DNA from: Taurinivorans muris
Lineage (GTDB): Bacteria > Desulfobacterota > Desulfovibrionia > Desulfovibrionales > Desulfovibrionaceae
Assembly: GCF_025232395.1 (NCBI RefSeq)
Contig: NZ_CP065938.1
Span: forward strand, 620,001-684,000
DNA: 64,000 nucleotides
Direction: 5' to 3'
Every line of letters begins with the position of its first letter. The stretch's first letter is position 1. The position numbers and the translations under genes are program-made. Below the pieces are notes generated by a model. The model was not told the origin of the DNA. It saw only the letters and a program-made list of their open reading frames with translations, and ran no database searches. Of this stretch, positions 38,130-60,860 are shown in pieces.

Positions 38130-38198
38130 AAATTGCTTTATAGTATAGAACAGCAAACTCGTCTAGATAAATTTTTTTTCACATGAGGATTTTCAAAA

Positions 38199-38762
38199 AT
38201 GAATGCAAATACACAGTGTTTCGCCTATATTCATGGTTTAAACAGCGACAAAAATTCCCGCTCCTGTAAAGAGATACATACATTGCTCGGTTCCGTGCAC
38301 GATTTTTATTATGATTATACGCAAAATGCCTTGCTTGCGCTTGCCGAAATTGAAAATAAATTATCGGACGTTCATAAAAACAATCCAAATCTCAAGCTTA
38401 TCGGCTCTTCCTTAGGCGGATTTTTCGCCCTTTATCTGGCGCGAAAATATCAATTATCCTGCACGGTCTTTAATCCTGTGACTTTCCCAAGTGAACAACT
38501 CGCCCCTTTTAAAGGAAAAAATTACAATTTCTACACCAACCGGGAATGGAATTTAACGGACGAAATTTTACAATCTTATACACGGTTACCGCTGTCAACG
38601 GATATGAAGCTCATGCCGGCTATTGTCCTCGGTCTGAATGACGAGACCGTTTCCCCAACGGTTACGATACATTTCTGGAAACACCACGCAAAAATACTGC
38701 TCACAACCGAAGAACATTCCATAACAAATTATCAAAAGTATTTATCGCTCCTAAAAAAATAA
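38199..38762 (+). CDS. YqiA/UPF0227 family alpha/beta hydrolase
   Basis: A 187-residue serine hydrolase like E. coli YqiA/YcfP. It has the oxyanion/His loop AYIHGLNSDKNS near the start, nucleophile Ser in LIGSSLGGFFA, Asp in GLNDETVSP and the catalytic His in EEHSITNY. Probably a cytoplasmic esterase of unknown substrate. It is divergent from hypA. Confidence 0.85.
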   Translation: MNANTQCFAYIHGLNSDKNSRSCKEIHTLLGSVHDFYYDYTQNALLALAEIENKLSDVHKNNPNLKLIGSSLGGFFALYLARKYQLSCTVFNPVTFPSEQLAPFKGKNYNFYTNREWNLTDEILQSYTRLPLSTDMKLMPAIVLGLNDETVSPTVTIHFWKHHAKILLTTEEHSITNYQKYLSLLKK

Positions 38763-38782
38763 GGCTGTCCCAAGACAACCTT
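38755..38782 (-). terminator. Terminator for the DegT pseudogene transcript
   Basis: On the minus strand AAGGTTGTC / GACAGCCTT (one mismatch, 4-nt loop) is followed by ATTTTTTT, which overlaps the end of the YqiA-like gene. A second perfect 10-bp inverted repeat (38790-38799 with 38811-38820) lies beside it. Confidence 0.55.
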
Positions 38783-38855
38783 ATTCACTCCATACAAACA
38801 ACAAAAAAAAGTTTGTATGGCATAAACCCTGCGCTAAATTCACGCTTTGTTCTTT

Positions 38856-39881
38856 TTAATTCAATCCTGTTTCTTTTACAACTTCCTCAATAATATCTGC
38901 AAGTAAATCACAATCATCAGTATCGAACGTAAGCGGCAAACGCATATCGCACATGGTTGCCAATACTTTTTTGGTATTTGGCAAATCCAAATTCGCCAAA
39001 TATGGGAAATATTGCCAGCTATCATAAGAGCTGGTAAATCCAGCAGGCTCTTTATTGCCGAACCACTTTACAGATACTCCGCGTTCTGCGCATTTTTCAA
39101 TAAATTCCTGAAGCTGTGCATAGCTTGCCTTTGGTAAATTCCATTGAATGGAACTGCCTACATAATATTCACGGCTATCGCGTTTCGGACATACACAGCC
39201 GGAAATTTTTTCAAGACGTGCCGCCATGTGATTGAGCAAAACATTCCAGCGACGGCACCGCTCATCCAAATTTTTCAATTGAGGCAATAAAATGCAGGCT
39301 CTCAAATTATCCATACGTGAACTGTAATTAGGAGTGATTTTCTTTACTTTTTCAAACACTTCAAGCGCCGGACGCCGTGTATGGGCGGAATAAAGCATAT
39401 AGGAACCGGAAAACATAATCGCTCTTGCCATTACATAATCATCATTCGTGATAAGAAGCCCGCCTTCGCCGGAATTCATATGCTTATATGTATGCGTGCT
39501 GTAACAAGCCGCTTTGCCGAACGTTCCGCTCTTTTTGCCGTTCCAGCAAGCACCCATTGTGTGGGCACAATCTTCAAGCATGATAAGATTATGTTTATTC
39601 ACAATTTCCATAACCCTGTCCATATTCGCCATATGCCCGCGCATGTGGGACAATAAGAGGAACTTGGCTTTCGTTTTTTCCGCTTTTCTATCCAACTCTG
39701 CAATATCAATGGTATAATCATCCGCAATTTCAACAAGTTCTATTTTACCGCTTGCATTCTCAATGGCACCGGGAACCGGGGCTAAGGTATACGCATTGCA
39801 AAGAACCGTATCACCATTTTGCACGCCTAGCGACTTTAGAGCAATGTATAAAGCACTGCCATAAGTTGAATTTATTTCATA
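38856..39881 (-). pseudogene. 5'-truncated DegT/DnrJ/EryC1/StrS sugar aminotransferase
   Basis: The open frame gives a 322-residue protein from a GTG at 39824, but recognisable DegT sequence continues upstream (STYGSALYIALKSLG, the substrate-side N-terminal part) with no start codon, to a TAA at 39882-39884. About 40-60 N-terminal residues are missing compared with full-length enzymes. The PLP region HTYKHMNSGEGG (Schiff-base Lys) and the ALMA-type Asp in EDCAHTMGA are intact. I infer a decayed gene cut by a deletion or recombination at the edge of the variable locus, although translation from an internal start cannot be excluded. Confidence 0.7.
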
Positions 39882-39884
39882 TTA

Positions 39885-40350
39885 AGCCTTATTTATGCCA
39901 AACCGCATGCTCTTTGACATATTTAATAAGATTATTTATGAAATATTTTATAAAATAATAAAATGAGAAAAAAAAATAATGCAAGATTAAAATTGAAATT
40001 TCATGTGAAATAATAAGCAATTTATCTTCAATACACTAATTTGATTGATAAAAAAAATAAAAATTTTTAAAAAAATATTTTAAGAATTATTTCATGAAAT
40101 ATTTGTTTTTTTTTGAATAATACAAATTAACTTAATTATTTCATAATATTGTAACAGCTACTCCGTTCTGATGAAATGACTGCAAAAATTTCAATCGCAG
40201 CAATACAGGAAAAACAAAGTAAAAACAATATGCATTACGCTTTCCCCTAAAAAATTTCACCGTTCCCAACTACAAAAAAATTCCCATTCATAAAATGCAT
40301 ATCAATTAATTTCAAAACATCGCATAGTGCAGAAAACCGATAAAAAAGAA
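39885..40350. other. AT-rich non-coding stretch with repeated TTTCAT palindromes
   Basis: About 465 nt with very high A+T and no credible ORF on either strand. It carries a perfect 12-bp palindrome ATTTCATGAAAT (40089-40100), a near-palindrome TTTCATGTGAAA (around 39998) and further ATTTCAT or ATGAAAT half sites near 39874, 39937 and 40140. It lies between the truncated aminotransferase and tRNA-Arg and may be the scar of past rearrangement or a regulatory region. Confidence 0.5.
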
Positions 40351-40351
40351 C

Positions 40352-40380
40352 TTGACTTTTATAATGAATTTACATACAAA
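40352..40380 (+). promoter_or_regulatory. Promoter of tRNA-Arg
   Basis: TTGACT (40352-40357), a 17-bp spacer and TACAAA (40375-40380) end 9 nt before the tRNA 5' end. Confidence 0.65.
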
Positions 40381-40389
40381 GCTTTGAAC

Positions 40390-40466
40390 GCGCTAGTAGC
40401 TCAGTCGGATAGAGCAACTGCCTTCTAAGCAGTCGGTCAGGAGTTCGAATCTCTTCTGGCGCGCCA
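40390..40466 (+). tRNA. tRNA-Arg (anticodon TCT)
   Basis: A 77-nt cloverleaf with encoded CCA. Acceptor stem GCGCTAG pairs with CTGGCGC (one G-T), D-loop AGCTCAGTCGGATAGAGC, anticodon loop CTTCTAA with TCT, and T-arm GGAGTTCGAATCTCT. It reads AGA codons. A strong terminator follows directly. Confidence 0.96.
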
Positions 40467-40474
40467 TATATTTC

Positions 40475-40507
40475 AAGAGTTATGGAACATCGCCATAACT
40501 CTTTTTT
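40475..40507 (+). terminator. Terminator after tRNA-Arg
   Basis: A perfect 11-bp stem AAGAGTTATGG / CCATAACTCTT with a 7-nt loop and T run. Confidence 0.92.
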
Positions 40508-40544
40508 ATTATTTGTTTTGGCTTCAGCCCATTCCTTTTTTTAT

Positions 40545-40573
40545 TTGACAAAACGAACAGTATGCAATAATGA
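40545..40573 (+). promoter_or_regulatory. Promoter of the plus-strand glycan operon
   Basis: A perfect TTGACA (40545-40550), 17-bp spacer and TAATGA (40568-40573), 25 nt before the first glycosyltransferase start. The -10 is only partly matching. Confidence 0.5.
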
Positions 40574-40597
40574 TTTTAAAAAAAATTAGGAAAAAAT

Positions 40598-41596
40598 ATG
40601 CCTCTTGTATCAGTTATTATGCCTTGTTATAATACGGAAGAAATGTATTTTAAAAATGCGGTTTCGAGTATTTTGGCACAAACAATGACTGATTTTGAAC
40701 TTATTATCATTGATGACGCTTCATTGCCCTATATTCAAGAAATAGCGAACAGCTTTCTTCACGATAAAAGAATCGTCTACCACCGTTTTTCACAAAATAA
40801 ACAAGCGCCGGCAGCCAGAAATTTCGGCATTTCATTAGCCAAGGGAAAATATATTGCGTTTTTGGATTCTGATGACTCCGCACATCCTGAACGTTTGCAA
40901 AAACAGGTTGATTTTTTGGAAAACAATCCCCAAGTCGGCGTCCTGGCGAGCAAAGTTGCCATTAACAATTCCACCTCCATTCCATTTTCATTCAAATATC
41001 TTGAAACACATAACGCCATAAGAAACCAACTGATTTTTAAAAACAACATCCTTTGCCAGTCAAGTATCATGCTCAGAAAAAACCTTTTGACCGACAATAA
41101 TATTTTTTATGCAACAGACCTCGCACCTATTGAAGATTACGCTCTTTGGCTTTCTTTGCTCAACCACACGAAATTTCATATTCTTAATGAAGAACTGACA
41201 ACCTATAATTTTTATGCGGAAAACTTATCAAACCGGAATGTTCACAAAAACATCATTAAAAATTTTGCGCTGCAATTTGACACTATCAACGCATTATTGG
41301 GCAACAAGTTAGCATATAAGGATAAATGGTTAAAAATCTGTCAAAACCAATTGTTATCCAAAGATGATTTTAACAATATCAATCAAAATTTGCGGGAAGT
41401 GTCTTCTTTTTTGGAAAAAGAAACAATTTTTCCCCGTGATGGTATGTATATTTTTAAAAATTGCTATAAATTTCTTTACAAAAATACGCTCAACCTTTCA
41501 GGGCAGTTATTTTTGTTTTTTTTGCCTATCAATAAAACACTCCGTATTCCATTTTACTGGAAAATTTCATCACTCATAACACGAGGGCTTTTTTAA
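40598..41596 (+). CDS. Family 2 glycosyltransferase
   Basis: A 332-residue GT-A enzyme, cytoplasmic or membrane-associated. It has the GT2 nucleotide-sugar segment [30 protein letters not shown], and the metal-binding [13 protein letters not shown]. The C-terminal third is basic and aromatic and probably lies at the membrane. The sugar is unknown. First gene of the plus-strand glycan operon; its stop shares one base with the start of the UDP-xylose synthase gene. Confidence 0.9.
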
Positions 41597-42552
41597 TGAA
41601 AACAATTTTAATTACCGGCGGCACCGGCTTTATCGGTGCAAACCTATGCGCAAGGCTTCTGAGCGAAGGTCATAAAATTATTTGCGTTGATAACAATTAC
41701 ACCGGCAGACTTGAAAATATCACCCCTCATTTGGACAATCCTTCCTTCACATTCATCAATCACGATATTTGCACGCCTTTGAAAATCGATACGAAAATCG
41801 ACCAAATCTATAACTTGGCCTGCCCCGCCTCCCCTCCCGCATATCAGGGAAAACATGCCATAAAAACGACCAAAACCTGCGTGTTCGGTGCAATCAACAT
41901 GCTTGAACTTGCCAAAGAACATAACGCTGTCATTTTGCAGGCCTCAACCTCGGAAGTATACGGAGAGCCTCTTGTCCATCCACAAGTTGAAACTTACCGC
42001 GGCAATGTCAATCCCATAGGAATACGAGCCTGTTATGATGAAGGCAAGCGCTGCGCCGAAAGTTTGTTTTTTGATTACCACAGACAAGAAGGCGTTGACA
42101 TAAAAGTCATCCGTATTTTCAATACTTATGGTCCGTATATGGATCCCAATGACGGACGGGTTGTTTCCAACTTCATTTGCCAGGCTTTATTGGGTAAAGA
42201 CATTACGATTTACGGCGACGGAACACAGACGCGTTCTTTTTGTTATGTCGATGACTTAATCGAGCTCATTATCCGTGTGATGAACAGCGGCAAAGATTTC
42301 ACCGGTCCTATCAATACCGGCAATCCTGACGAATTTACCATTAAGGAACTTGCCGAGCTTGTTATCGATAAAATAAAAGGCGCTTCCAAAATCGTTTATA
42401 AAGACTTGCCGGCTGACGATCCGACCCAAAGAAGACCGGACATCAGCCTTGCCAAAGCAAAATTCAATTGGCAGCCTTCCATTAAATTAACTGCCGGATT
42501 AGACAAGACCATTGAATATTTCAAAACCCAAATCCATTTGTTTAAAGCATAG
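41596..42552 (+). CDS. UDP-glucuronate decarboxylase (UDP-xylose synthase)
   Basis: A 318-residue extended short-chain dehydrogenase. N-terminal [11 protein letters not shown] binds NAD. The catalytic residues lie in STSEVYG and CYDEGKR (Tyr/Lys pair). The [13 protein letters not shown] and [20 protein letters not shown] segments are diagnostic of UXS. It converts UDP-glucuronate to UDP-xylose. The next gene supplies UDP-glucuronate, which supports the assignment. Confidence 0.9.
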
Positions 42553-42567
42553 CACAAGAGGACAAAT

Positions 42568-43866
42568 ATGAACGTTGCCATTATCGGAACAGGATATGTC
42601 GGCTTGCCGACCGGTGTCGGTTTAGCCGAATTGGGGCACCAGGTTGTCTGTATTGACAGGGAACAAAGCAAAATCGATGCGCTGCAGGCAGGAAAAATTA
42701 CCCTTTATGAAGACGGTCTCGAAGAACTTTTCCGCAAAAATACGAAAGAAAAACGGCTCCATTTTACAACTTCAATGAAAGACGGCATCAGCAATGCCGA
42801 ACTTGTCATTATCGCCGTGGGCACGCCTCCCCACCCTATCACCAAAGAAGCAGACATGAAATATATCCATGCCGCAGCAACGGAACTGGCGGAACACCTG
42901 ACCAGATACACTATCATCGCAACAAAATCCACAGTGCCAGTCGGCACAGGCGACGATATTGAAATCCTCATCGCCAAAAAAAATCCCCAAGCGGAATTCG
43001 ATGTGGTATCGCTTCCCGAATTTTTGCGTGAAGGATATGCCGTGCATGATTTTTTCAATCCTGACAGAATTATTGTCGGTGCCAACTCCGATAAAGCGAA
43101 AGAAAAAATCAAAGAGCTCTATAAAGCTTTTGACAATGAAATTCCCATGCTTTTTGTAAGCAGACGTTCCTCTGAAACAATAAAATATGCTTCCAATGCC
43201 TTTTTAGCGATGAAAATCCATTATATCAATGAAATGGCGAATTTTTGCGAAAAAGCTGACGCAAACATTTATGAAGTCGCTCAAGGCATGGGGCTTGACA
43301 GCAGAATCGGACCCAAATTTTTAACGCCCGGTCCCGGATACGGGGGAAGCTGCTTTCCTAAAGATACTCTCGCCATGGCGTATATGGCAAGACAGAATGA
43401 TGTTGAAATGTCTTTAATCACAGCAACAATAAAAGGAAACGACAACCGCAAAAAAGAAATGGCGGAACGCATTGTCAATGCTGTAAAATATATTGATAAT
43501 CCCAAGATTGCCGTTCTCGGTTTAGCATTTAAAAACGGCACGGACGATTGCCGCGAAAGTCCGGCGATAGAAATTGTTTCCGAACTTGTAAACAGAAAAT
43601 ATTCTGTCTTCGCCTACGATCCAAAAGCAATGAAAAATGCGGAAACCCTCATCGGCAGCAAAATCACGTATTGCCAAAGCGCATATGAAGCTGTTGAAAA
43701 TGCCGATGTTTTGGCAATTCTGACTGAATGGGAAGAATTTAAGAAACTTGATTTGAATAAAATTGCTTCTCTTATGAAAAACAAAACCATTATTGACTGC
43801 CGCAATATGCTTGATAAACAAAAAGCCCTTTCATTAGATTTCAATTACCAAGGAATCGGCATATGA
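42568..43866 (+). CDS. UDP-glucose 6-dehydrogenase
   Basis: Oxidises UDP-glucose to UDP-glucuronate in two NAD steps. The 432-residue protein has the N-terminal GTGYVGLPTGV Rossmann motif, KSTVPVGTGDD, the catalytic Cys in GPGYGGSCFPKD and the C-terminal LAFKNGTDDCRESPA domain. It is 15 nt after the decarboxylase gene and overlaps galE by 4 nt, so both products feed one nucleotide-sugar branch. Confidence 0.94.
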   Translation: MNVAIIGTGYVGLPTGVGLAELGHQVVCIDREQSKIDALQAGKITLYEDGLEELFRKNTKEKRLHFTTSMKDGISNAELVIIAVGTPPHPITKEADMKYIHAAATELAEHLTRYTIIATKSTVPVGTGDDIEILIAKKNPQAEFDVVSLPEFLREGYAVHDFFNPDRIIVGANSDKAKEKIKELYKAFDNEIPMLFVSRRSSETIKYASNAFLAMKIHYINEMANFCEKADANIYEVAQGMGLDSRIGPKFLTPGPGYGGSCFPKDTLAMAYMARQNDVEMSLITATIKGNDNRKKEMAERIVNAVKYIDNPKIAVLGLAFKNGTDDCRESPAIEIVSELVNRKYSVFAYDPKAMKNAETLIGSKITYCQSAYEAVENADVLAILTEWEEFKKLDLNKIASLMKNKTIIDCRNMLDKQKALSLDFNYQGIGI

Positions 43867-44841: not shown

Positions 44842-45645
44842 ATGGAAAAAAGGTTTGATCATATTATTTCATTAGGTTTAAATTGTGAAATTTCCTTTAT
44901 TTTGAAAAAAAAGTTTAACTTTGTTGAAAGTTCTTTGTTATCATGGAGTTACATTCCTATTTCAAGCCTTAATGATGTATTAAAAAATCCTCAGTTAATT
45001 TTTTCAGAAGGTATAGAAGACTTAACTGAATATAATATGTTCAAATGTTCTAAAACAGGAATTGCTTTTCATGGAAAAAACCCGCCAAGTTTTTATACGG
45101 ATAAAAAAGGCAATATCGATCAATCATTGTTATTACAAGAAAAAAATGACGTTATTTCAAGAGTTGAATATTTAAAACAAAAATTTATCAGAGTAGGTCA
45201 ATCATCGGAATCCAAATTGTACGTTTTAGGTATCAGCCATTATTTTACGCAAAACCTAAAACAATCGTTAAAAGACATCATACTAAATTGCTATGAAGCA
45301 ATCGCTCAATCACAGCAGAATGCTTCACTTTTGGTTCTTCTTGAAAAAGATATTGCAACAGCTGATTTATTTGATTTAAGTAATATATATATATATATTA
45401 GAACACTTGATTATTTCGCCCCAATCGATAAAGCAACATTTGAAGAATATGTTGATTTAAAAAATGCGTTTTTAATTTTTAAGGAATTTGTCCCAACAAT
45501 GACACATACAGAAAATAAAACATATAAATTTGAAAAAAATGTAGAGGAAAAGAACATGGGTTCAAATAATCGCAAAACTCCGACCATTTCAGTGGTAAGG
45601 GCAATTCGTTACCTTCTAACTATGAGAAAATGGGGTAAAGAATAA
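44842..45645 (+). CDS. DUF1796 (putative papain-like cysteine peptidase) protein with internal (AT)8 tract
   Basis: A 267-residue protein of the DUF1796 family, which is often found in polysaccharide clusters. FDHIISLGLNCEISFIL near the start has the SLGxxC motif, followed by SSLLSW. The C-terminal 50 residues are basic. The ATG at 44842 follows AGGAAA; the longer frame from 44695 overlaps galE. A 16-nt (AT)8 tract at 45383 encodes NIYIYI at about residues 181-186, so slippage would cut the last third. The present length leaves the frame open. The last stretch of this gene is duplicated at 46860-47020. Confidence 0.78.
   Translation: MEKRFDHIISLGLNCEISFILKKKFNFVESSLLSWSYIPISSLNDVLKNPQLIFSEGIEDLTEYNMFKCSKTGIAFHGKNPPSFYTDKKGNIDQSLLLQEKNDVISRVEYLKQKFIRVGQSSESKLYVLGISHYFTQNLKQSLKDIILNCYEAIAQSQQNASLLVLLEKDIATADLFDLSNIYIYIRTLDYFAPIDKATFEEYVDLKNAFLIFKEFVPTMTHTENKTYKFEKNVEEKNMGSNNRKTPTISVVRAIRYLLTMRKWGKE
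45383..45398. repeat. (AT)8 tract in the DUF1796 gene
   Basis: Sixteen alternating bases in frame, read IYIYI on the plus strand. Confidence 0.95.
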
Positions 45646-46846: not shown

Positions 46847-46982
46847 ATGTTAATGATGTTCTTAAGTAATATATATATATATATTGAAGCACCGGATTAT
46901 TCTGCCCGATCGGTAAAGCAATACTTAAAGAATATATTGATTAAAAAATGTATCTTCAATCTTTAAGGAATTTGTAACAACG
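46847..46982 (+). pseudogene. Duplicated 3' fragment of the DUF1796 gene, with (AT)8 tract
   Basis: From about 46862 the sequence matches 45376-45539 (the tract, then DYxxP/ATFEEYVDLKNAFLIFKEFV-like codons) with substitutions and a one-base deletion near 46937 that shifts the frame. The following codons (MAHTENKTCKIEK) are in frame with, and form the N-terminus of, the next glycosyltransferase. A 39-codon ORF from ATG 46847 spans the tract but ends at 46966. I read it as a remnant of a lost second DUF1796 gene. Confidence 0.7.
46869..46884. repeat. (AT)8 tract in the duplicated fragment
   Basis: Sixteen alternating bases, same flank (TTAAGTA on the left) as the tract at 45383. It lies 99 nt before the start of the next glycosyltransferase. 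Confidence 0.95.
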
Positions 46983-48902
46983 ATGGCACATACAGAAAAT
47001 AAAACATGTAAAATTGAAAAATCTCCTATGATTTCAGTTATAATGTCAACATATAACCGTGAAAATTATTTGCCTGCTGCGATGGAATCCATTCTTAATC
47101 AAACGTATACCGATTTTGAATTCATTATCATTGATGACGCATCCACAGACAATACGGCGAAATTACTGCAAGAATATCAAGAAAAAGATTCCAGAATCGT
47201 TGTTATCAGCAATCCGCAGAACTTAGGGTACAATAAAAATCTTACAACCGGATTTAAGCTTGCAAAAGGCAAATATCTTGCCCGTATGGATGATGATGAT
47301 ATTTCGCTGCCAACCCGCTTTGAAAAGCAAGTCGATTTTTTAGAAAAAAACCCCGATATAACGGTTGTTGGCACATTTATTGAGATTTTCGGCAATAATC
47401 CTATGAAAAGCTGGTGTACGCTTACAGATTGGGATGAACTTGCCGTCGCAATGAATTTTTATAATCCGATATGCCACCCCTCCGTAATGATACGAAATTC
47501 TTTTTTAAAAGAACATAATTTAGCATATGACCCTGAAGTTCTGTATGCTGAAGAATATGATTTATGGAAAAATATTATTTTCTTGGGCGGAAAATTGGCG
47601 AATATTCCCGAAGTACTGCTCAAATACCGCAGTCACCTTCAAAACGTTTCGCAAAAAAAAGATACCTCAAAAATTCAGACTGATTTTGCAAATTCAATAC
47701 GCAACCAGTTACTTTCACGCATGTTTTCAAAAACTAAGATTGCGGAATTGAATAAAAAGCTCATATATTATCCCTTTGACTGCAATAAGAAAAAAATTCT
47801 TGAAGAAACTCTCAACACTTTAAAAAAATTCCCGGATATTCCAAGTTCAGGCATTGACAAACTTATGGATAAATTAGTCGGTAAAAAGTCCGATATTCAT
47901 ATTTTTTTTGCTTCTGACGATAACTATGCACAGCATTTAGCCATAGCCATCACCTCTCTTCTTATCAACTCAACTTCCTTTGACAACTTTCATCTCTATA
48001 TTTTAGACGGAAATATTTCCGAAAAGAATAAAAATAAAATCTTAGCATGTAAAAAAATAAAAGATTTTCAAATTGAATTTATTAAAATTGATGACAAACT
48101 CTTTGAAATATGCCCTCTCACCCCTGATTGCCAACATATTTCACGTCAAACATATTACAGATATATTATTCCTATTTTAAAACCGGAACTTGAAAAGTGT
48201 TTTTATTTTGACTGTGACATCATTATAACTGACAGTTTAAATAAATTTTGGAATATTGATTTAAAAGATAATTATATTGCAGCTGTTGAAGAATTATATG
48301 AAGGAGCTTCCGACGACTGCAGCAGATTGAATATCGAATACGAAATCAATGCCGGCATACTGCTTATCAACAATAAAAAATGGATTACAGACAACATTGT
48401 AGATTTATTATTCAAAAACACTGTAAAATTGACACAGCAAAACATTTTGAAATGGCAGGATCAAGATGTTATCAATTATACATTCAATAAAAAGATGTTA
48501 TTTGTTTCACCTGCGTATAATTTGCAATGCAATGCTTTTTATGACGGTCAACATTCTTTGTATACGGATTATGAAATGAAGTTGGCTAAATCACATTATG
48601 CAATTATTCATTATAACAGCAATTTAAAACCTTGGCATAACGACTGTAAACATCCGCTCTGGGAACAATATTTCTATTATTTGCAGCGCTCGCCCTATAA
48701 AAAAACTCACTATTTAAAGATTATTAAATTAAAGCTAAAAACACTAAAACATTTTTTCTTCATAAAAGAAAAAAATAAAGATAATACAGAACTCAGATAT
48801 AAAATCTTAAGAATACGAGTGGTAAAAGTTATCAGACGAAACAATACCAAAGAAATTTCAATTTTCGGATTTAAAATGAAATTTCCCAATACCCCCAAAT
48901 AA
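46983..48902 (+). CDS. Two-domain glycosyltransferase: GT2 + GT8
   Basis: A 639-residue fusion. Residues about 18-270 are GT2 ([48 protein letters not shown]). Residues about 300-570 are a GT8 (LgtC/glycogenin-like) domain: IHIFFASDDNYAQHLAIAITSLL, the metal-binding FYFDCDIII and the C-terminal HYNSNLKPWH. The last 60 residues are basic. The first about 15 residues derive from the duplicated DUF1796 fragment; Met at 47028 is an alternative start. It could add two sugars successively. Confidence 0.86.
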   Translation: MAHTENKTCKIEKSPMISVIMSTYNRENYLPAAMESILNQTYTDFEFIIIDDASTDNTAKLLQEYQEKDSRIVVISNPQNLGYNKNLTTGFKLAKGKYLARMDDDDISLPTRFEKQVDFLEKNPDITVVGTFIEIFGNNPMKSWCTLTDWDELAVAMNFYNPICHPSVMIRNSFLKEHNLAYDPEVLYAEEYDLWKNIIFLGGKLANIPEVLLKYRSHLQNVSQKKDTSKIQTDFANSIRNQLLSRMFSKTKIAELNKKLIYYPFDCNKKKILEETLNTLKKFPDIPSSGIDKLMDKLVGKKSDIHIFFASDDNYAQHLAIAITSLLINSTSFDNFHLYILDGNISEKNKNKILACKKIKDFQIEFIKIDDKLFEICPLTPDCQHISRQTYYRYIIPILKPELEKCFYFDCDIIITDSLNKFWNIDLKDNYIAAVEELYEGASDDCSRLNIEYEINAGILLINNKKWITDNIVDLLFKNTVKLTQQNILKWQDQDVINYTFNKKMLFVSPAYNLQCNAFYDGQHSLYTDYEMKLAKSHYAIIHYNSNLKPWHNDCKHPLWEQYFYYLQRSPYKKTHYLKIIKLKLKTLKHFFFIKEKNKDNTELRYKILRIRVVKVIRRNNTKEISIFGFKMKFPNTPK

Positions 48903-54766: not shown

Positions 54767-54780
54767 AAGATTATCCATAA

Positions 54781-55491
54781 TTAGTGTATAATATAACTAT
54801 CAATTAAAAAATTTACTTTTTCAATGGAATTAAACATTAAAACATCTATAATCGAAAGTCCGGGAACATATGCCGTTTTGCCTTGAGAATATTCAATAAG
54901 ATTATTAACAATAAAATCAATTTTAATACCATTCTTTTCATATTTATCAATATCAAAGAAATCAATTCCGCCAATAGGATTGACATAATGGTCAACATTT
55001 CGGGATTTACAGATATTTAATGCCCACTCATCTCCTTTCCATGAAACATCAAATAAATTCTCTTCACTAAAGATAGTTATTGGCGTAACAATACCAAGAT
55101 AAGAGCAGATTGTTTCTAAAATATGTTTATTCAACAGCGTAATGCTTTCTGTTTCAATATTCAAACATTCCCGGATTAAATCAATAATAACAAAATAATT
55201 CTTTGTTTTTTTCCTGTAATGTTCCAATTGGGAAAAAATTTTTCCTCTCCAATCAATACTATTATTGATTAAAATATCTTTAATTAAGGTTTTTTGATGG
55301 TATTTTTTTAAAGGAACCATTACATATTGCCAATCAAGACCGTCTGGTTTTAAAATCCTATTTCGTTCAATCCACCCATGTTTTATAAATTGAACATCCT
55401 CAAGCAATATAAATTCATGACAAGCTTTAATTAAAGAAAAATACCCAAGATAAGGGAAAAAATATGGCTGCATTATCGCTAACGTCTTCAT
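54781..55491 (-). CDS. WbqC-like family protein
   Basis: A 236-residue member of the WbqC family found in O-antigen and capsule loci; its biochemistry is uncertain and it may be involved in amino-sugar or acyl modification. The N-terminus MKTLAIMQPYFFPYLGYFSLI and the later LEDVQFIKHGWIERNRIL motif are diagnostic. It is two nt after the methyltransferase stop and 14 nt before the aminotransferase start. Confidence 0.82.
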   Translation of the reverse strand: MKTLAIMQPYFFPYLGYFSLIKACHEFILLEDVQFIKHGWIERNRILKPDGLDWQYVMVPLKKYHQKTLIKDILINNSIDWRGKIFSQLEHYRKKTKNYFVIIDLIRECLNIETESITLLNKHILETICSYLGIVTPITIFSEENLFDVSWKGDEWALNICKSRNVDHYVNPIGGIDFFDIDKYEKNGIKIDFIVNNLIEYSQGKTAYVPGLSIIDVLMFNSIEKVNFLIDSYIIH

Positions 55492-55493
55492 AT

Positions 55494-56213
55494 TTACCTT
55501 GATAATAAAATATTAAAGCGGTAAAAAGATTGATAATGGCAATTTTCAAAAGGAATTTCACAAACTTTCCAACCGGCATTGTTTGCAATATCAACAAACT
55601 CTTCCGGATCATGCCAACAACCAAATTGAGAATTAACATCATCAAGATTGACTGTATTCACATCAATATTCCTTTTTTTAAAAAAATCAGCGGCATGATT
55701 TTTATTCGGAATAGGCGACATATACACATTTTTCACATTGATGAATTTTTCATACAAAAAAGTAAAGAAATCACCTAATAATGGTTTGGATATAAATTGG
55801 ATACTTCCAAAAATCAATATCTTAGTGAAATCTTCTTGTGAAAAATAGGAATTTTGCAAAATACCGTCCAAATCAAAATGTGACAAATCGGAACAGGCAT
55901 AGGAAGATTTGTTTTCAATACGGAAATTGTTATTGGCAACCTGAATTAAATAATCCGAACCGTCAACTCCGTGCAGCCCTTTTATGCTATCAAGAAAAAG
56001 AGACGATAAATGTCCGTTGCCGCAAAACAAATCCAACACGACATCGTCTTTTGATAACTTTAAAGCATTACGGATTGAATTGGTAATGAAATTCAATTGT
56101 TCCGCAGGAATATCCTCGCCATTCTCAGTTCGCCAAACTTGTTTCAAAAAATCTTTTGAATCATATTGTTCCGCATGCTTCGTGTAAATCTCTATCGCAC
56201 TCAATTTTGTCAT
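55494..56213 (-). CDS. Class I SAM-dependent methyltransferase (copy A, no tract)
   Basis: A 239-residue methyltransferase with motif I VVLDLFCGNGHLS and GVDGSDYLI. It is nearly identical in layout to the gene at 56472 (both begin MTKLSAIEIYTKHAEQYD and end YQSFYRFNxLLSR). At the place where copy B has the (TA)8 tract, copy A encodes NVKNVYMSP with the same length. The two genes and the piece behind each form a tandem duplication. Substrate unknown. Confidence 0.85.
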   Translation of the reverse strand: MTKLSAIEIYTKHAEQYDSKDFLKQVWRTENGEDIPAEQLNFITNSIRNALKLSKDDVVLDLFCGNGHLSSLFLDSIKGLHGVDGSDYLIQVANNNFRIENKSSYACSDLSHFDLDGILQNSYFSQEDFTKILIFGSIQFISKPLLGDFFTFLYEKFINVKNVYMSPIPNKNHAADFFKKRNIDVNTVNLDDVNSQFGCWHDPEEFVDIANNAGWKVCEIPFENCHYQSFYRFNILLSR

Positions 56214-56216
56214 AAC

Positions 56217-56440
56217 CTACCCATTATTCTCAAAAAATTTTTCCAAAACAAAAACAATCCTGTCCATGTCTTTTTTAGTATAGCGTTGGTCCATTGTCAA
56301 GGGAATAATGGTTTCACGGTTTTTTCTGCAATTCTCACTTGCCTGAGCACAGGGTATTCATTCGATTTCTAAAAATAACTCAACGCATGAATTTTATGTT
56401 ACAATAACGCTTGTAACTTTTCTTTTTTCATTATTTCAAA
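56217..56440 (-). pseudogene. Duplicated 3' remnant of the PLP-fold gene at 57195
   Basis: This stretch matches 57195-57427 (the C-terminal end of the PLP-dependent gene: VLEKFF, DRIVFVLEK and EYPM-region codons) with stop-causing changes near 56360-56400. It follows methyltransferase copy A just as the intact gene follows copy B, so both are halves of one tandem duplication with a spacing of 978 bp. Confidence 0.8.
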
Positions 56441-56471
56441 AAGACCGCATTTGCTGTTCGGCTTTCCACAT

Positions 56472-57191
56472 CTACCTTGATAATAAGACATTGAAACGGT
56501 AAAAAGATTGATAATGCCGATTTTCAAAAGGAATTTCCTGGGCTTTCCACCCGGCTCCGTTTGCAATATCCATAAATTCTTTTGGGTCATGCCAAGAACC
56601 GATAGGGGTATTATTGTCATCAAGATTTACGGTAGTTACATCAACATTTCTTTTCTTAAAAAAATCAGCGGCATATCTTTTGTTGGGGACAGGAGCTATA
56701 TATATATATATAGCATTAGTAAATTTCTTATACAAAAAAGTAAGAAAATCAGCCAGCAAAGACTTTGACAAATATTGAATGCTTCCAAAAATCAATATCT
56801 TAGTGAAATCTTTTTGTGAAAAAAGGGAATTTTGCAAAATGCCGTCCAAATTCAAAAGCGACAAATCGGAACAAGCATAGGAAGATTTATTTTCAATACG
56901 GAAATTTTCATTGGCAATTTTAATTAAATAATCTGAACCGTCAACCCCGTGTAATCCCTTTATTTCATCAATGAAAAAATGCGACAAATGCCCATTGCCG
57001 CAAAACAAATCCAACACGACATCGTCTTTTGACAATTTTAAAGCATTACGGATTGAATTGGTAATGAAATTCAATTGTTCCGCGGGAATATCCTCGCCGT
57101 CAACGGTTCGCCAAACATGTTTCAGAAAATCTTTTGTATCATATTGTTCCGCATGCTTCGTATAAATCTCTATCGCACTCAATTTTGTCAT
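56472..57191 (-). CDS. Class I SAM-dependent methyltransferase (copy B, with (TA)8 tract)
   Basis: A 239-residue methyltransferase, sister of copy A, with DVVLDLFCGNGHLS. The 16-nt tract at 56697-56712, flanked by a palindromic GC, encodes AIYIYIAP at about residues 160-165. A change of one unit would frameshift and remove about 75 residues including the C-terminal DxxxFF/NVLLSR part. At this length it is open (ON). It ends 36 nt before the truncated remnant and follows the PLP gene by 3 nt. Confidence 0.85.
   Translation of the reverse strand: MTKLSAIEIYTKHAEQYDTKDFLKHVWRTVDGEDIPAEQLNFITNSIRNALKLSKDDVVLDLFCGNGHLSHFFIDEIKGLHGVDGSDYLIKIANENFRIENKSSYACSDLSLLNLDGILQNSLFSQKDFTKILIFGSIQYLSKSLLADFLTFLYKKFTNAIYIYIAPVPNKRYAADFFKKRNVDVTTVNLDDNNTPIGSWHDPKEFMDIANGAGWKAQEIPFENRHYQSFYRFNVLLSR
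56697..56712. repeat. (TA)8 tract in methyltransferase copy B
   Basis: Sixteen alternating bases, absent from the otherwise similar copy A. Confidence 0.95.
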
Positions 57192-57194
57192 ACC

Positions 57195-58178
57195 CTACCC
57201 ATTATTCCCAAAAAATTTTTCCAAAACAAAAACAATTCTGTCCATATCTCTTTTAGTATAGCGTTGGTCTATTGTCAAGGGAATAATGGTTTCACGGTTT
57301 TCTCTGCAATTTTCACCCGCCATGTGCATAGGATATTCATTCGATTTCGGCCAATAACTCGCCGTATAGATTTTATGTTTCAGCAAATATGCTTGCAGTT
57401 CTTTTTTTTCATCAACTTTAAAAGGATACACCATGGGAACGTCATCCGTATCCGGTTCAAATTTCAGTAAATTTTTATTTTTTAGTCTATTATGCAAATA
57501 ATTGAAATTTCTTTTGCGTATTCGGGCAATTTTTTCATAATGAATACTCTTCATCAGGTTTTGTGTTAAAAATGACATTTTTTCTATTCCGCAACCGGCA
57601 ATTATCTGTCTGTTTTTAACAAATTCGTCATATCCTTCTTGGGCTTCCCGGTCATGCCGGATTAATAAATGACTGCATATTTCATAAGAATGAGAACGGG
57701 GCAATTTTTCATATTCTTCTTCCAAATTCAAATCCGTGCATAAAATGCCCCCGTCAGGCAGTCCGAAAAATTTTCTCGGACTGTAAATACCGGCGGTTCC
57801 ATATTGTTTTGAATAAAACGCCTGCGAATTGTCAAAAATAATATTCCCTTTTTTATTTTTACATAACATCGTATTTTTTTTGCCTGTAATTCCAAAATAA
57901 TTATTGATGAGATAAAATTGATTTTCCTGAAATTCAATAAGAGGAGTGAAATCGGTATCCACATCATAAGGAATTATTGTACAATTCGCCCTTTCCACGC
58001 TCTTCCAAATGGTTTCGCATGTGAACATGGGCACATGCAATTTTTTGATTTTTTTTTGCTGAAGATAAAAAGAAAGGGCGTTTCTTGAAGAATTGAATAA
58101 CAATGAAGAATTATGATAATTTTTATGAAATCCGCATTCCAGTTCAAAATATCCGCCGATTTCATTTTTATTTGACAT
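57195..58178 (-). CDS. DegT-like PLP-fold protein of unknown substrate
   Basis: A 327-residue protein resembling DegT/DnrJ aminotransferases in outline. Visible are LLFNSSRNALSFYL, IIFDNSQAFYS (Asp in place) and the likely PLP lysine in YSPRKFFGLPDGGIL. It is more distant from the two DegT genes below. I use ATG 58178 (MSNKNEIGGYF) after TGAGGA; the longer frame to 58241 runs through the AT tract. First gene of the minus-strand operon and divergent from the NeuD-like gene. Confidence 0.75.
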   Translation of the reverse strand: MSNKNEIGGYFELECGFHKNYHNSSLLFNSSRNALSFYLQQKKIKKLHVPMFTCETIWKSVERANCTIIPYDVDTDFTPLIEFQENQFYLINNYFGITGKKNTMLCKNKKGNIIFDNSQAFYSKQYGTAGIYSPRKFFGLPDGGILCTDLNLEEEYEKLPRSHSYEICSHLLIRHDREAQEGYDEFVKNRQIIAGCGIEKMSFLTQNLMKSIHYEKIARIRKRNFNYLHNRLKNKNLLKFEPDTDDVPMVYPFKVDEKKELQAYLLKHKIYTASYWPKSNEYPMHMAGENCRENRETIIPLTIDQRYTKRDMDRIVFVLEKFFGNNG

Positions 58179-58206
58179 TATCGCTGGTATCCTCAATAAA
58201 AAATTA

Positions 58207-58233
58207 TTGACCAACAATATATATATATATACT
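58207..58233 (+). promoter_or_regulatory. Possible phase-variable promoter of the NeuD-like gene
   Basis: TTGACC (58207-58212) and TATACT (58228-58233) are separated by 15 bp made almost entirely of the AT tract. One extra unit would give the optimal 17 bp. Transcription would start near 58240, at the ATG itself, implying a leaderless message. On the other strand TTGACA (complement of 58233-58238) abuts the tract. Boxes are seen; function is inferred. Confidence 0.45.
58217..58231. repeat. (AT)7A tract between divergent genes
   Basis: Fifteen alternating bases in the 61-bp gap between starts at 58178 and 58240. Also readable as codons of a TTG-started extension (NNIYIYT) of the plus-strand gene. 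Confidence 0.95.
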
Positions 58234-58239
58234 GTCAAC

Positions 58240-58923
58240 ATGAATTATCAGGTTATTATATTTGGCACCGGCGGGCTTGCACAAATTCTCTATACGAAGT
58301 TATGCCAAACAGGACATGCTGTTTCTGCGTTTGTTCTTGAGAAAAAATATAAAAATTGCGAACAATTTTTAGGACTGCCGGTAATTGACTTTGAAAAGAT
58401 AGAAGAAACATACCCTCCCCATTCCTATAAATTCATCATCGGAATTGGAGGAAACATGTTAAATAAGCTTAGAACAAGAATTTATCATGAATTTAAAGCA
58501 AAAGGATATCAGCCCATATCGTATATTGACAAGTCAGCAAGCATATTACCGGATTGCAGTGTCGGCGAACACTGCATTTTATTTGAAAATGTTGTCGCCC
58601 ATTCTAAGGTAAGAATTGGCGATAATGTTTATGTGCTTCCGAACACATATTTGGGGCATCACAGCGTTATCGAAGACAATTGCTTTATTGCAGCACAAGT
58701 TTCTTTGGCAGGCGGCGTAATCATAAAAAAAGGATGTTTTTTAGGCGCTTCTTCTTGTGTAGCCAACAGTGTCACTATCGGAGAAAGCTGTGTTTTGGCG
58801 ATGGGAAGTTACTGCACCAAAAGTTCCCCGCCTGACACATTGATCATCAACAATGAATTTTATGACGATGCGGAAAACCGGTTTGACAATTACTTTCAAA
58901 AAGCCAGAAAAAACTTTGAATAA
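58240..58923 (+). CDS. NeuD-like sugar O/N-acyltransferase (left-handed beta-helix)
   Basis: A 227-residue protein. The N-terminal Rossmann-like part has IFGTGGLAQIL, followed by hexapeptide repeats from about residue 105: SVGEHCILFENVVAHSKVRI, YLGHHSVIEDNCFI, GVIIKKGCFLGASSCV. It belongs with NeuD/PglD acetyltransferases that modify nonulosonic or amino sugars. ATG 58240 is the natural start; a TTG at 58207 would add the tract-coded residues. No Shine-Dalgarno is seen. Confidence 0.86.
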   Translation: MNYQVIIFGTGGLAQILYTKLCQTGHAVSAFVLEKKYKNCEQFLGLPVIDFEKIEETYPPHSYKFIIGIGGNMLNKLRTRIYHEFKAKGYQPISYIDKSASILPDCSVGEHCILFENVVAHSKVRIGDNVYVLPNTYLGHHSVIEDNCFIAAQVSLAGGVIIKKGCFLGASSCVANSVTIGESCVLAMGSYCTKSSPPDTLIINNEFYDDAENRFDNYFQKARKNFE

Positions 58924-58937
58924 AAGAATATAAATAA

Positions 58938-58986
58938 AAAAGCATTATGTTATTTTTTAGCAGTGAAAAAATAACATAATGCTTTT
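58938..58986. terminator. Bidirectional terminator, 21-bp perfect stem
   Basis: Positions 58938-58958 and 58966-58986 are perfect reverse complements with a 7-nt loop and A/T runs, lying between the convergent NeuD-like and radical SAM genes. Confidence 0.92.
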
Positions 58987-59010
58987 AACATGCGGCTGAT
59001 ATTTAAAAAA

Positions 59011-59766
59011 TCAGATAATTTTTCTAAAAAACCGTTTAACGTTCATCCAAGGTGACGTTTCCATTTTCTCTAATTGGGCATTGACTTTTTCCTGCAATTC
59101 CATGGGCATGAAAAACGGCTCGACAGCCATTCCATTCACTTTTGCCAAATGACGGAACAAAGCGGCGGCTTTTACAGATTGATCTGTCACGCTCTTGTCC
59201 CTGATATCACGAAAATCAAAAGAAAATTCAACCAATGAAACATTGGACTTTTTGCAAAATTCAAAAAACTTTTCAATTTGTTTCAGACTGTTGTTTTCTT
59301 TAAAAATTATATATTTTATGTTGACTTTATTCGTATCTTTCGCATTATTGACATAATCGGCGATATGCTTGGTAACGGCATCCCATTTATCAACGCCCTT
59401 CACCCTTTTATATGTTTCCCTGTCGCCGCAGTCCAGACTTATGTTAACACTTCCCTTATTTTCCTGTAAAAAATCAATGATTGACTGCGATAAATGAAAA
59501 CCGTTTGTATGGACATATTGAACAAAACCGTTATCCAAAGACCAACGGCTTGTTTCCTCAAAGTCTTTTAACAGCGTACTTTCCCCTCCGCCCCAATGAA
59601 GACTTGTTGTTTCCGGATTGATGGCTTTTTGTTCATATAAGGAAGTTAATGGCTCATACATGCTGTACGGTTTGATTTTTTCGGGATAATTCCATAAATG
59701 GCAGTAAACGCAGCGGCAATCACAATAATATTTGTGAGGATTGATGCTGACAATTCTTATATCCAT
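59011..59766 (-). CDS. Radical SAM protein, C-terminal part of a frame-split gene
   Basis: A 251-residue ORF with the radical SAM cluster CDCRCVYC (C-x3-C-x2-C) at about residues 15-22 and SLHWGGGESTLL with the SAM-binding GGE. It begins at an ATG that overlaps the end of the upstream piece. Codons upstream of this ATG in the same frame read SGQEFPP and enter the AT tract, and the family normally has a Cys-rich N-terminal domain like the upstream ORF. I therefore infer one gene, now split by tract length. The cluster motif remains in this part, so a residual product is possible. Confidence 0.85.
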   Translation of the reverse strand: MDIRIVSINPHKYYCDCRCVYCHLWNYPEKIKPYSMYEPLTSLYEQKAINPETTSLHWGGGESTLLKDFEETSRWSLDNGFVQYVHTNGFHLSQSIIDFLQENKGSVNISLDCGDRETYKRVKGVDKWDAVTKHIADYVNNAKDTNKVNIKYIIFKENNSLKQIEKFFEFCKKSNVSLVEFSFDFRDIRDKSVTDQSVKAAALFRHLAKVNGMAVEPFFMPMELQEKVNAQLEKMETSPWMNVKRFFRKII

Positions 59767-60005
59767 TGGCGGGAACTCTTGCCCGCTATATATATATATA
59801 TATCAGAACAGTCAGTGCAAAAAGCATTGGGCGGATTTTGAATTTTTTCCCTTACTTCTTCAATATGCTTGGTATATTTTTCAAAATCCACATATCCGCC
59901 GGTAAATGGAAATTCAGGCGCTCCCGCCCTATGGACATCGCAGCAAGGCGATATGCAAGTCGGCAAAAAATTCATGTGAAAATGCAGCTGATCACAATAA
60001 TTCAT
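59757..60005 (-). CDS. Radical SAM protein, N-terminal part of the same frame-split gene
   Basis: Starts MNYCDQLHFHMNFLP at ATG 60005 after AAGGAG, one base beyond the stop of the methyltransferase gene. It has Cys residues at CISPCCD and FCTDCSD, then the tract-coded IYIYI, and a short out-of-frame tail (AGKSSRQWI) before TAA. With one AT unit less, it would read DIYIYSGQEFPP and continue into the downstream ORF, giving 330 residues. At present it is probably OFF. Confidence 0.8.
   Translation of the reverse strand: MNYCDQLHFHMNFLPTCISPCCDVHRAGAPEFPFTGGYVDFEKYTKHIEEVREKIQNPPNAFCTDCSDIYIYIAGKSSRQWI
59787..59803. repeat. 17-nt AT tract at the frame break of the radical SAM gene
   Basis: Eight units plus one base. 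Length 15 or 21 nt would restore one frame; 17 does not. Confidence 0.95.
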
Positions 60006-60006
60006 A

Positions 60007-60810
60007 TTATTCTCCTTTGGTGATTTCAACAATCAATGTTGATTCTTTACGTGTTTCAAGATTATTCAGCGGAGCGTGCATGCTTTTATGCAGCTCGCAA
60101 AAAACGTACTTTTTAAATCCCAATTCCTCAATGCGTCTTGCCAATTCTTCTTCATCATACAACCATTTATGCCCCCATGAACGAAAAGCGATGTTCAAAT
60201 TTTCCGCCTGCGTCTTTATGTAGGTCAAATGAAATTTTTCAAACAATTCTTTTGTATCAGCAATCCATTGTTCTTTCGGCTTTAAATAATTGGCAACAGT
60301 ATTTTTTAAATCGGGCATGGCTATACGAAGAACGCCATGGGGCTTTAAAACCCTCATAAATTCGGAAACAGCCCTCTTTCCCTCATCAACGGTCAAATGT
60401 TCCAAAAAATGTTCATTAAAAATAAAATCAACGCTGTTATCAGGAAAAGGAAGAGGATTTGCAAGATCCAAATTCAAATCTAATTTTTCTATATTGTTGT
60501 CAGAGTTATTATCAATATTGATCCATCCGGGTTTATAGACCATACCGCAGCCTACATGAAGCTTTACGGCGCTGTCCTTATATTTTTCCAAAACTTCCTG
60601 CGCTGAAGAAAAATTCGGAATTAATCCGGAAGGTTCTTTATGCGGGAAAGAAGGTTTCACCTCTTCCGAATTTTCTGAACCGGATATATATATATATATT
60701 GGAACAGAAGATAAAATTACCTTAATACCGAAAATTGTGAGGATTTTTTCTTTTTCATTGATAACTGTTCTGTTTTTCACAGAAAATATCGTTTCTAAAA
60801 TTTTTTTCAA
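60007..60810 (-). CDS. SAM-dependent methyltransferase with N-terminal (AT)8 tract
   Basis: A 267-residue methyltransferase with motif I LHVGCGMVYKPGWINIDN and FIFNEHFLEHL, typical of glycan or lipid methyltransferases. The start is the TTG at 60810, five bases after a perfect AAGGAGG, in preference to TTG 60831. The tract at 60684-60699 encodes PIYIYISG at about residues 38-42, in a variable N-terminal extension before the catalytic domain. Slippage would abolish the enzyme. The frame is open now. It shares a transcript with the radical SAM gene. Confidence 0.85.
   Translation of the reverse strand: MKKILETIFSVKNRTVINEKEKILTIFGIKVILSSVPIYIYISGSENSEEVKPSFPHKEPSGLIPNFSSAQEVLEKYKDSAVKLHVGCGMVYKPGWINIDNNSDNNIEKLDLNLDLANPLPFPDNSVDFIFNEHFLEHLTVDEGKRAVSEFMRVLKPHGVLRIAMPDLKNTVANYLKPKEQWIADTKELFEKFHLTYIKTQAENLNIAFRSWGHKWLYDEEELARRIEELGFKKYVFCELHKSMHAPLNNLETRKESTLIVEITKGE
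60684..60699. repeat. (AT)8 tract near the start of the methyltransferase gene
   Basis: Sixteen alternating bases, in frame, about 110 nt after the start codon. Confidence 0.95.
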
Positions 60811-60831
60811 AACCGCCTCCTTATTCGTCAA

Positions 60832-60860
60832 ATTATATTCTCATGATACTGATTTGTCAA
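60832..60860 (-). promoter_or_regulatory. Consensus sigma-70 promoter of the methyltransferase-radical SAM transcript
   Basis: On the minus strand TTGACA (60855-60860), a 17-bp spacer and TATAAT (60832-60837): all twelve bases match consensus. The predicted start is about 60825, leaving a short leader that contains AAGGAGG. Confidence 0.8.

Follow-up and report, generated by a model that had tools for sequence, protein, structure and literature searches.

Two adjacent open reading frames on the minus strand of the analyzed stretch of DNA (64,000 nt, hereafter the window) encode an N-terminal Cys domain and a radical SAM core, and a pure AT repeat puts them in different frames. The question is whether this gene is broken, codes for two proteins or is a phase-variable (contingency) gene that is OFF in the sequenced clone. 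We consider it very likely that the last applies and that the gene switches by slippage of its AT tract. That this particular tract slips is an inference, as neither read nor expression data are at hand.

The split gene and its transcription unit

ORF1 (59757-60005, minus strand) codes for the N-terminal Cys domain, with 82 aa from the ATG. The AAAGGAG immediately 5' of this ATG is a good Shine-Dalgarno sequence. ORF2 (59011-59766, minus strand, 251 aa) codes for the radical SAM core. It has a CxxxCxxC motif and a WGGGE motif and matches Pfam Radical_SAM (PF04055) with 50.9 bits (cut-off 29.5), so that the core predicted for this ORF in a preliminary description of the locus could be confirmed. 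The AT tract (59787-59803, minus strand) consists of 17 nt of pure AT alternation. It sits inside ORF1, which continues for 9 codons beyond the tract and then stops. The frame of ORF2 is open from the tract onward, for 257 codons.

The preliminary description had placed both ORFs and the 17-nt tract correctly. It had also stated that the ORFs meet at the tract, which is not the case: they overlap by 10 nt further 3' (59757-59766). Its count of 331 codons upon removal of one repeat unit is accurate (995 nt less 2 nt leaves 993 nt, stop included).

The split gene forms a two-gene unit on the minus strand, in which it follows a gene for a class I methyltransferase (60007-60831, minus strand; Methyltransf_11, 42.2 bits, cut-off 21.2). 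Judged by its sequence context, the true start of the methyltransferase is probably the TTG at 60810, which lies behind AAGGAGG. Ahead of the unit is a promoter-like TTGACA-17-TATAAT (60832-60860, minus strand) that matches the consensus at 12 of 12 positions. The promoter scan as a whole returned 10 sites, with a mean of 7.7 in shuffles, and we argue only for the perfect site. An intrinsic-terminator-like hairpin with a 20-pair stem and a T tail is found 3' of ORF2 (58939-58985, minus strand). The methyltransferase gene has an AT tract of its own (16 nt, 60684-60699, minus strand), which is in the ON frame now; thus, both genes of the unit can switch independently.

Under the proposed mechanism, replication slippage in the AT tract would change its length by 2-nt units, and these changes would join the radical SAM core to the reading frame of the N-terminal Cys domain or separate it from that frame. 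In an OFF clone, translation that starts from the Shine-Dalgarno sequence of ORF1 would stop 9 codons past the tract. We infer that no active enzyme is made in this state.

The five N-terminal cysteines of ORF1 (C4, C21, C22, C63 and C66) are kept, as is the core motif of ORF2, so that neither half looks decayed, and no second lesion besides the tract was seen in the split gene. This is difficult to reconcile with an ordinary, irreversible frameshift pseudogene, the more so as the frame is broken at a pure repeat, and repeats of this class differ between strains of the species by whole units (see below). The gene does lie within a stretch that is absent from another strain, represented by a metagenome-assembled genome (MAG), and one homolog, from G015, is itself truncated (265-codon open frame). 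Even so, we find a pseudogene hardly credible.

Homologs carry both domains in one chain

A search of 59 genomes, which included the genome under study (G000), identified good homologs in three further genera of this family. A profile search returned a match at E 1e-20 or better in 18 of 199 family genomes, again including G000. An alignment query of genome contigs led to 12 loci, mostly from Desulfovibrio or related MAGs, while a single-sequence scan of genome contigs with ORF2 gave no match. In total, 30 homolog loci were examined. Of these, 22 are close, seven are remote (L088-L092, L103 and L104, with E from 2e-16 to 7e-30), and one (L105) is truncated at the end of its contig.

At all 22 close loci, the Cys domain and the radical SAM core are encoded in one ORF. 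The homologs from the first two of the three other genera, L010 (322 aa) and L011 (327 aa), are likewise single proteins in which an ORF1-like Cys domain precedes the core. In alignments, ORF2 takes up where ORF1 ends along the homologs. The best match at each of the seven remote loci is again a single ORF. Judged by identical match statistics, L077/L101, L078/L098, L082/L100 and L086/L099 probably represent one record each that is present in two collections, which concerns at least four of the 22; about 17-18 of the close loci are distinct. The homolog in L077/L101 is short at its C terminus. AT runs of at least 9 nt are absent from all 30 loci.

The preliminary description had regarded Cys domain and core as one type of protein and had proposed a homolog search, by which its view would have been refuted if relatives always had two proteins. 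The single chains at the 22 close loci uphold that view. They also support its explanation of the split by tract length, together with the unit-wise variation of this class of tracts within the species.

Two functional proteins could nevertheless be made if ORF2 were translated by termination-reinitiation at its overlap with the ORF1 stop (ATGGATATAA). The 10-nt overlap, in which the ATG of ORF2 is just ahead of the stop of ORF1, would suit this, and ORF2 alone covers the core of a modeled homolog. We consider this improbable, given that the close homologs are single chains at 22 of 22 loci, that inspection by eye revealed no Shine-Dalgarno sequence ahead of the ORF2 ATG, and that the break is found at an AT tract, a kind of repeat that occurs 28 times in the genome. 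A single gene that is interrupted at its tract remains the preferred reading.

Which enzyme is encoded by this gene can be stated only in part. The five N-terminal cysteines are invariant in three homologs and in a ten-row alignment that includes ORF1, and the CxxxCxxC core motif is present in ORF2 and the homologs. When scanned alone, ORF1 exceeds no Pfam cut-off, and no NCBIfam model matches it. Among the named NCBIfam radical SAM equivalogs, ORF2 is far below the cut-off in all of the best 25 of 38 models, its best score among the matches listed being 49.2 bits as compared to 231 (MoaA model NF001199). A structure model was analyzed for a homolog, L100, rather than for the window protein (mean pLDDT 86.9, pTM 0.85). 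Its core aligns to the PFL-activating enzyme (8fo0; Z 14.9, rmsd 3.6, 207 residues) and to SkfB (6efn; Z 14.0, rmsd 3.1, 208 residues). Thus, the protein is a radical SAM enzyme with an unknown substrate. It is on this homolog model, and not on the window protein, that the partial TIM-barrel fold was established. The lowest ten-residue block of the model (residues 71-80, mean pLDDT 58) is the linker between the Cys domain and the core, and the tract falls at about this position.

The protein resembles the radical SAM superfamily (the cores of MoaA, PFL-activating enzyme and SkfB) in its PF04055 match, its CxxxCxxC and WGGGE motifs and the fold of the homolog. Unlike these cores, it has an N-terminal Cys domain of about 70 residues without a family match. 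A PDB sequence search also returned two chains of the CFA/I fimbrial subunit; these were dismissed as chance matches without a passing stretch.

A genome-wide class of AT tracts

The genome (2,172,708 bp, one contig) contains 28 long AT runs, all of 14-18 nt. There are 1, 3, 19, 4 and 1 runs of 14, 15, 16, 17 and 18 nt, respectively. Under a first-order Markov model, only 0.0017 AT runs of 15 nt or more are expected per genome and 5e-5 in the window, so that this class of tracts is not due to chance. The window has 27 AT runs of 6-8 nt (somewhat above chance), none of 9-14 nt and seven of 15-17 nt. As a control, (TA)6 and (AT)6 were counted in the whole genome (68 and 73 occurrences, respectively). 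These counts are fully explained by the 28 runs, and therefore the genome has no runs of 12 or 13 nt. Other repeats were analyzed only in the window, where other dinucleotide runs do not exceed 7 nt, A or T runs do not exceed 9 nt, and G or C runs are shorter than 7 nt. The window has a G+C content of 40.4%; for 235 kb, mostly tract loci, it is 42.1%. With a pure repeat beyond chance and a 2-nt unit within an otherwise intact gene, the split gene has two of the characteristics of a contingency locus.

The distribution of lengths also bears on a possible sequencing or assembly error in the tract. Repeats are error-prone, no reads are at hand, and the tract of an amidohydrolase gene (L036) adjoins a run of N in the MAG. 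On the other hand, the lengths scatter little, 19 of the 28 tracts having 16 nt, and a 17-nt repeat fits inside one short read. If the genome is that of Taurinivorans muris LT0009, it was assembled from Illumina and Nanopore data (PMC10507020). We regard an error as highly improbable and keep to a tract that is OFF in the sequenced clone.

In addition to the two tracts of the transcription unit, the window contains five others. A 16-nt tract (56697-56712, minus strand) is within a methyltransferase gene (56472-57191) and is ON; a tandem paralog of this gene (55494-56213) has no tract. Two more ON tracts of 16 nt are inside an RgpF-like gene (32800-32815, minus strand) and inside an ORF for a 316-aa protein without Pfam match (45383-45398, plus strand). 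A 16-nt tract (46869-46884) is upstream of a GT2/GT8 glycosyltransferase gene (46983-48902), and a 15-nt tract (58217-58231), which has TTGAC on both sides, separates divergent PglD-like and aminotransferase-like genes.

Four of the seven window tracts are in an accessory stretch of about 6 kb (54768-60725) that is absent from the MAG of the same species. The stretch codes for the radical SAM protein, methyltransferases, WbqC, and PglD-like and aminotransferase-like proteins. Two DegT genes located beside it are 88.5% identical between the strains, while the other flank is 98.4% identical.

Genome-wide, 14 of the 28 tracts are coding, and 14 are upstream of or between genes. These labels are our own and were derived from ORF positions. 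Among the tract-linked genes with Pfam matches are those for RgpF, GT2/GT8 and GT2 proteins, methyltransferases, the radical SAM protein and a ManC-like nucleotidyltransferase. Further matches are to ATP-grasp, PagL, MBOAT, two autotransporters, amidohydrolases, and histidine kinase or GGDEF proteins. An AT3-SGNH acyltransferase is also tract-linked (one of two tract-bearing paralogs was scanned). Several tract-linked proteins have no Pfam match, among them those of L038, L040 and L045 and the 316-aa ORF of the window. The radical SAM locus is a member of this set, together with genes for surface polysaccharides, lipid A, autotransporters, signaling and amidohydrolases and with prophage tail-linked genes. 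We infer that a surface glycan is modified by the enzyme.

Eight of the 14 coding tracts are in frame, five are out of frame with good support, and one (L038) is a candidate only. In the latter case, the frames suggest an OFF state, and no family match is available to support it. The five are the radical SAM tract, those of L036 and L042, and two in L045. The radical SAM tract had been described as the only one that directly shows an OFF state. This holds for the seven tracts of the window, and it does not hold for the genome (L042, L036 and two copies in L045). The manC-like gene in L042 is the cleanest second case, since its NTP_transferase domain is cut, with profile positions 2-75 and 80-243 in successive ORFs. 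The amidohydrolase gene in L036 is out of frame, and its N-terminal fragment resembles, as judged by eye, the intact protein of L052.

L045 has three tandem copies with identical ATGGGCAAATCC starts. The first copy has an 18-nt tract in frame, and the two others each have a 16-nt tract out of frame. These three tandem ORFs of about 200 aa (L045:4425-6955; G000:C1:738178-749178) are near a gene for a phage tail fiber and one for a tail/baseplate protein. This may be a prophage tail array that switches by slippage. The flanks of the L045 tracts had no matches in IMG/VR.

Three tandem radical SAM-like genes are encoded in L041 (L041:1877-4875), one of which is interrupted close to its 3' end by an AT tract that is in frame. 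An extra L041-like copy with its own tract (L111, at 1377) is present in the MAG of the same species, and arrays of relatives were also seen in two MAG loci, L103 and L104.

Tract lengths vary within the species

For comparison within the species, a single MAG (G137; 80% complete, 250 contigs) was used, its species assignment being that of its label. Nine tracts are comparable between G000 and G137, and five of them are of unequal length, the difference always being a multiple of 2 nt: L050 (16 nt in G000, 18 nt in G137), L048 (17 and 19 nt), L052 (16 and 18 nt), L040 (16 and 12 nt) and L049 (16 and 10 nt). Lengths are equal for L051, L047, L041 and L038. Both flanks are homologous (up to 1 kb per side) in five pairs, L050, L051, L048, L047 and L052, of which three differ in their tracts; the flanks of these five have 84 substitutions and 10 indels in 9,289 columns. 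The other pairs are weaker, as L040, L041 and L038 have one good flank or a shorter stretch, and L049 rests on a single alignment.

Unit-wise length variation is thus directly observed, at tracts other than that of the radical SAM gene. Only three of the comparable tracts are coding. Those of L041 and L038 are equal, and that of L049 differs by 6 nt. No frame flip was seen at clear orthologs: apart from L049, whose 6-nt change preserves the frame, all length differences concern non-coding tracts. Frame-changing lengths were encountered only among the prophage-linked L045 copies; in the MAG, such a copy has a 20-nt tract that breaks its frame, and it is unclear if this copy is an ortholog or a paralog. 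The MAG is fragmented and incomplete, and therefore its consensus tract lengths could be wrong.

The remaining tracts could not be compared. The accessory stretch 54768-60725, including the radical SAM gene, has no match in the MAG, where 148 bp separate both flanks on one contig. The window tracts at 32800, 45383 and 46869 are not covered, the only long match being to window positions 38137-43104. For the manC-like tract, the upstream part of the query alone matched. A second tract in L049 (at 6009) is outside the MAG match, which ends at L049 position 5935. Also outside the nine pairs are L036, where the MAG has a run of N at the tract, and L045, with its unresolved orthology. For the tracts of L107 and L110, which are found in the MAG only, and for the further L041-like copy (L111 at 1377), G000 has no corresponding tract; these were not counted.

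Beyond the species, (TA)7 occurs in five of the 59 genomes: G000, G001 and G004, which belong to the genus, and G007 and G010 from two other genera. It is absent from two of the four congeners (G002 and G003). The stretches fetched from G004 contain 18 tracts. Members of one acyltransferase family have tracts in both G000 (at about residues 158 and 170) and G004 (residues 267 and 270). The different positions in the protein may mean that the tract set turns over. MutL (PF01119) is encoded in 56 of the 59 genomes, including G000 and its four congeners. As MutL is present, loss of mismatch repair does not help the tracts to slip, and we rejected it as a cause.

Single-chain homologs, a class of tracts that is not due to chance and unit-wise changes within the species together lead us to conclude that the split is very likely due to slippage-driven phase variation.

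Tracts outside genes and a possible role in promoter spacing

A TTGAC is found within 10 nt of the tract in seven of the 14 non-coding tracts and in none of the 14 coding ones. The motif is as close to 1.8% of random positions (binomial 1.8e-9) and to one of 92 short AT runs. In the congener G004, six of 18 tracts have TTGAC within 10 nt, all kinds of tracts being pooled. We could not place a consensus -10 box for any of the seven TTGAC-linked tracts, and for this reason promoter spacing is an inference. One clear -35/-10 pair exists in L040, which is not among the seven: TTGATG is followed by a 17-nt gap (the tract and one base) and TATAAT. In the MAG, only 13 nt separate the two boxes. The set of 28 tracts would thus act in two ways, by frame in the 14 coding tracts and, probably, by promoter spacing in the TTGAC-linked half of the non-coding ones.

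Two autotransporter genes (L037:4000-4014 and L039:4000-4016) have near-identical TTGACA-tract upstream regions with tracts of 15 and 17 nt, one unit apart. In L051 (L051:481-7699), proteins of 1,150 and 1,126 aa are encoded in tandem, the first with amidohydrolase matches; the tracts upstream of the two (16 and 14 nt) both adjoin TTGAC.

The non-coding tracts also bear on a last alternative for the split gene, according to which transcriptional or ribosomal slippage yields a low level of full-length protein, so that the tract sets a level rather than an ON/OFF state. A long dinucleotide repeat that is followed by a GCGGG/CCCGC hairpin would be compatible with this. The predicted fold is, however, little better than those of shuffled sequences (z -1.19; 27 of 200 shuffles as good), and the hairpin was rejected as a signal for programmed frameshifting. 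A slippery heptamer was not apparent by eye, and tracts of this kind are also present in non-coding DNA, which is not translated. This alternative is thus very improbable, and we retain ON/OFF switching by replication slippage.

A precedent for AT repeats in promoters is hifA/hifB from Haemophilus influenzae, where (TA)9-11 has been proposed to set the -10/-35 spacing of surface genes (PMC2651432). The TTGAC-linked non-coding tracts share the AT dinucleotide with this system, and a similar role in promoter spacing is inferred for them. Among the non-coding tracts described here, a clear -10 box was placed only at L040, and the radical SAM tract differs in being coding.

Relation to known systems and biological meaning

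Switching by repeat slippage is well-known. In contingency loci of Campylobacter (poly-G), Helicobacter, Neisseria and Haemophilus, surface genes carry short pure non-triplet repeats, and unit changes flip the frame, which is how we interpret the locus described here. Phase-variable radical SAM genes are also not new: the PhasomeIt study (PMC6321876) includes two from C. fetus (G(9-10) and G(9) tracts), listed together with phase-variable methyltransferases whose locus tags are close by. The study gives 44 dinucleotide tracts for Campylobacter as compared to 1944 poly-G/C tracts. While the Campylobacter loci are mostly poly-G/C, the repeat that was sought and found here is an AT dinucleotide. 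We found no earlier report on phase variation of this type in Desulfovibrionaceae, which is weak evidence, as only open-access literature was covered. What looks new is the AT repeat class, the lineage, and the fact that the tracts are used both within genes and ahead of them.

It is tempting to speculate on a more general system, an AT-dinucleotide phasome of gut sulfidogens that combines frame switching with -35-linked promoter spacing, operates with MutL present and has a tract set that is turning over. In this reading, a specific process may also seed or protect the tracts, since runs of 12-13 nt are missing from the genome and runs of 9-14 nt from the window, as opposed to 28 runs of 14-18 nt. 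We propose this only tentatively and consider it unlikely to hold.

For genome annotation, the consequence is that such genes will be labeled as broken even though they are possibly merely OFF. The bacterium is probably a gut commensal that produces sulfide. Many of the 28 tracts are located at cell-surface genes, so that random changes of its coat are probable. If this is true, variation in O-antigen or capsule, in lipid A, in autotransporters and, perhaps, in sensitivity to phages is predicted for clonal populations. If the genome is that of Taurinivorans muris, a taurine-respiring, H2S-producing bacterium from the mouse gut, a culturable model of random surface switching would be available. 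It would be a commensal model outside the usual pathogens, with 28 listed loci that could be followed in mice.
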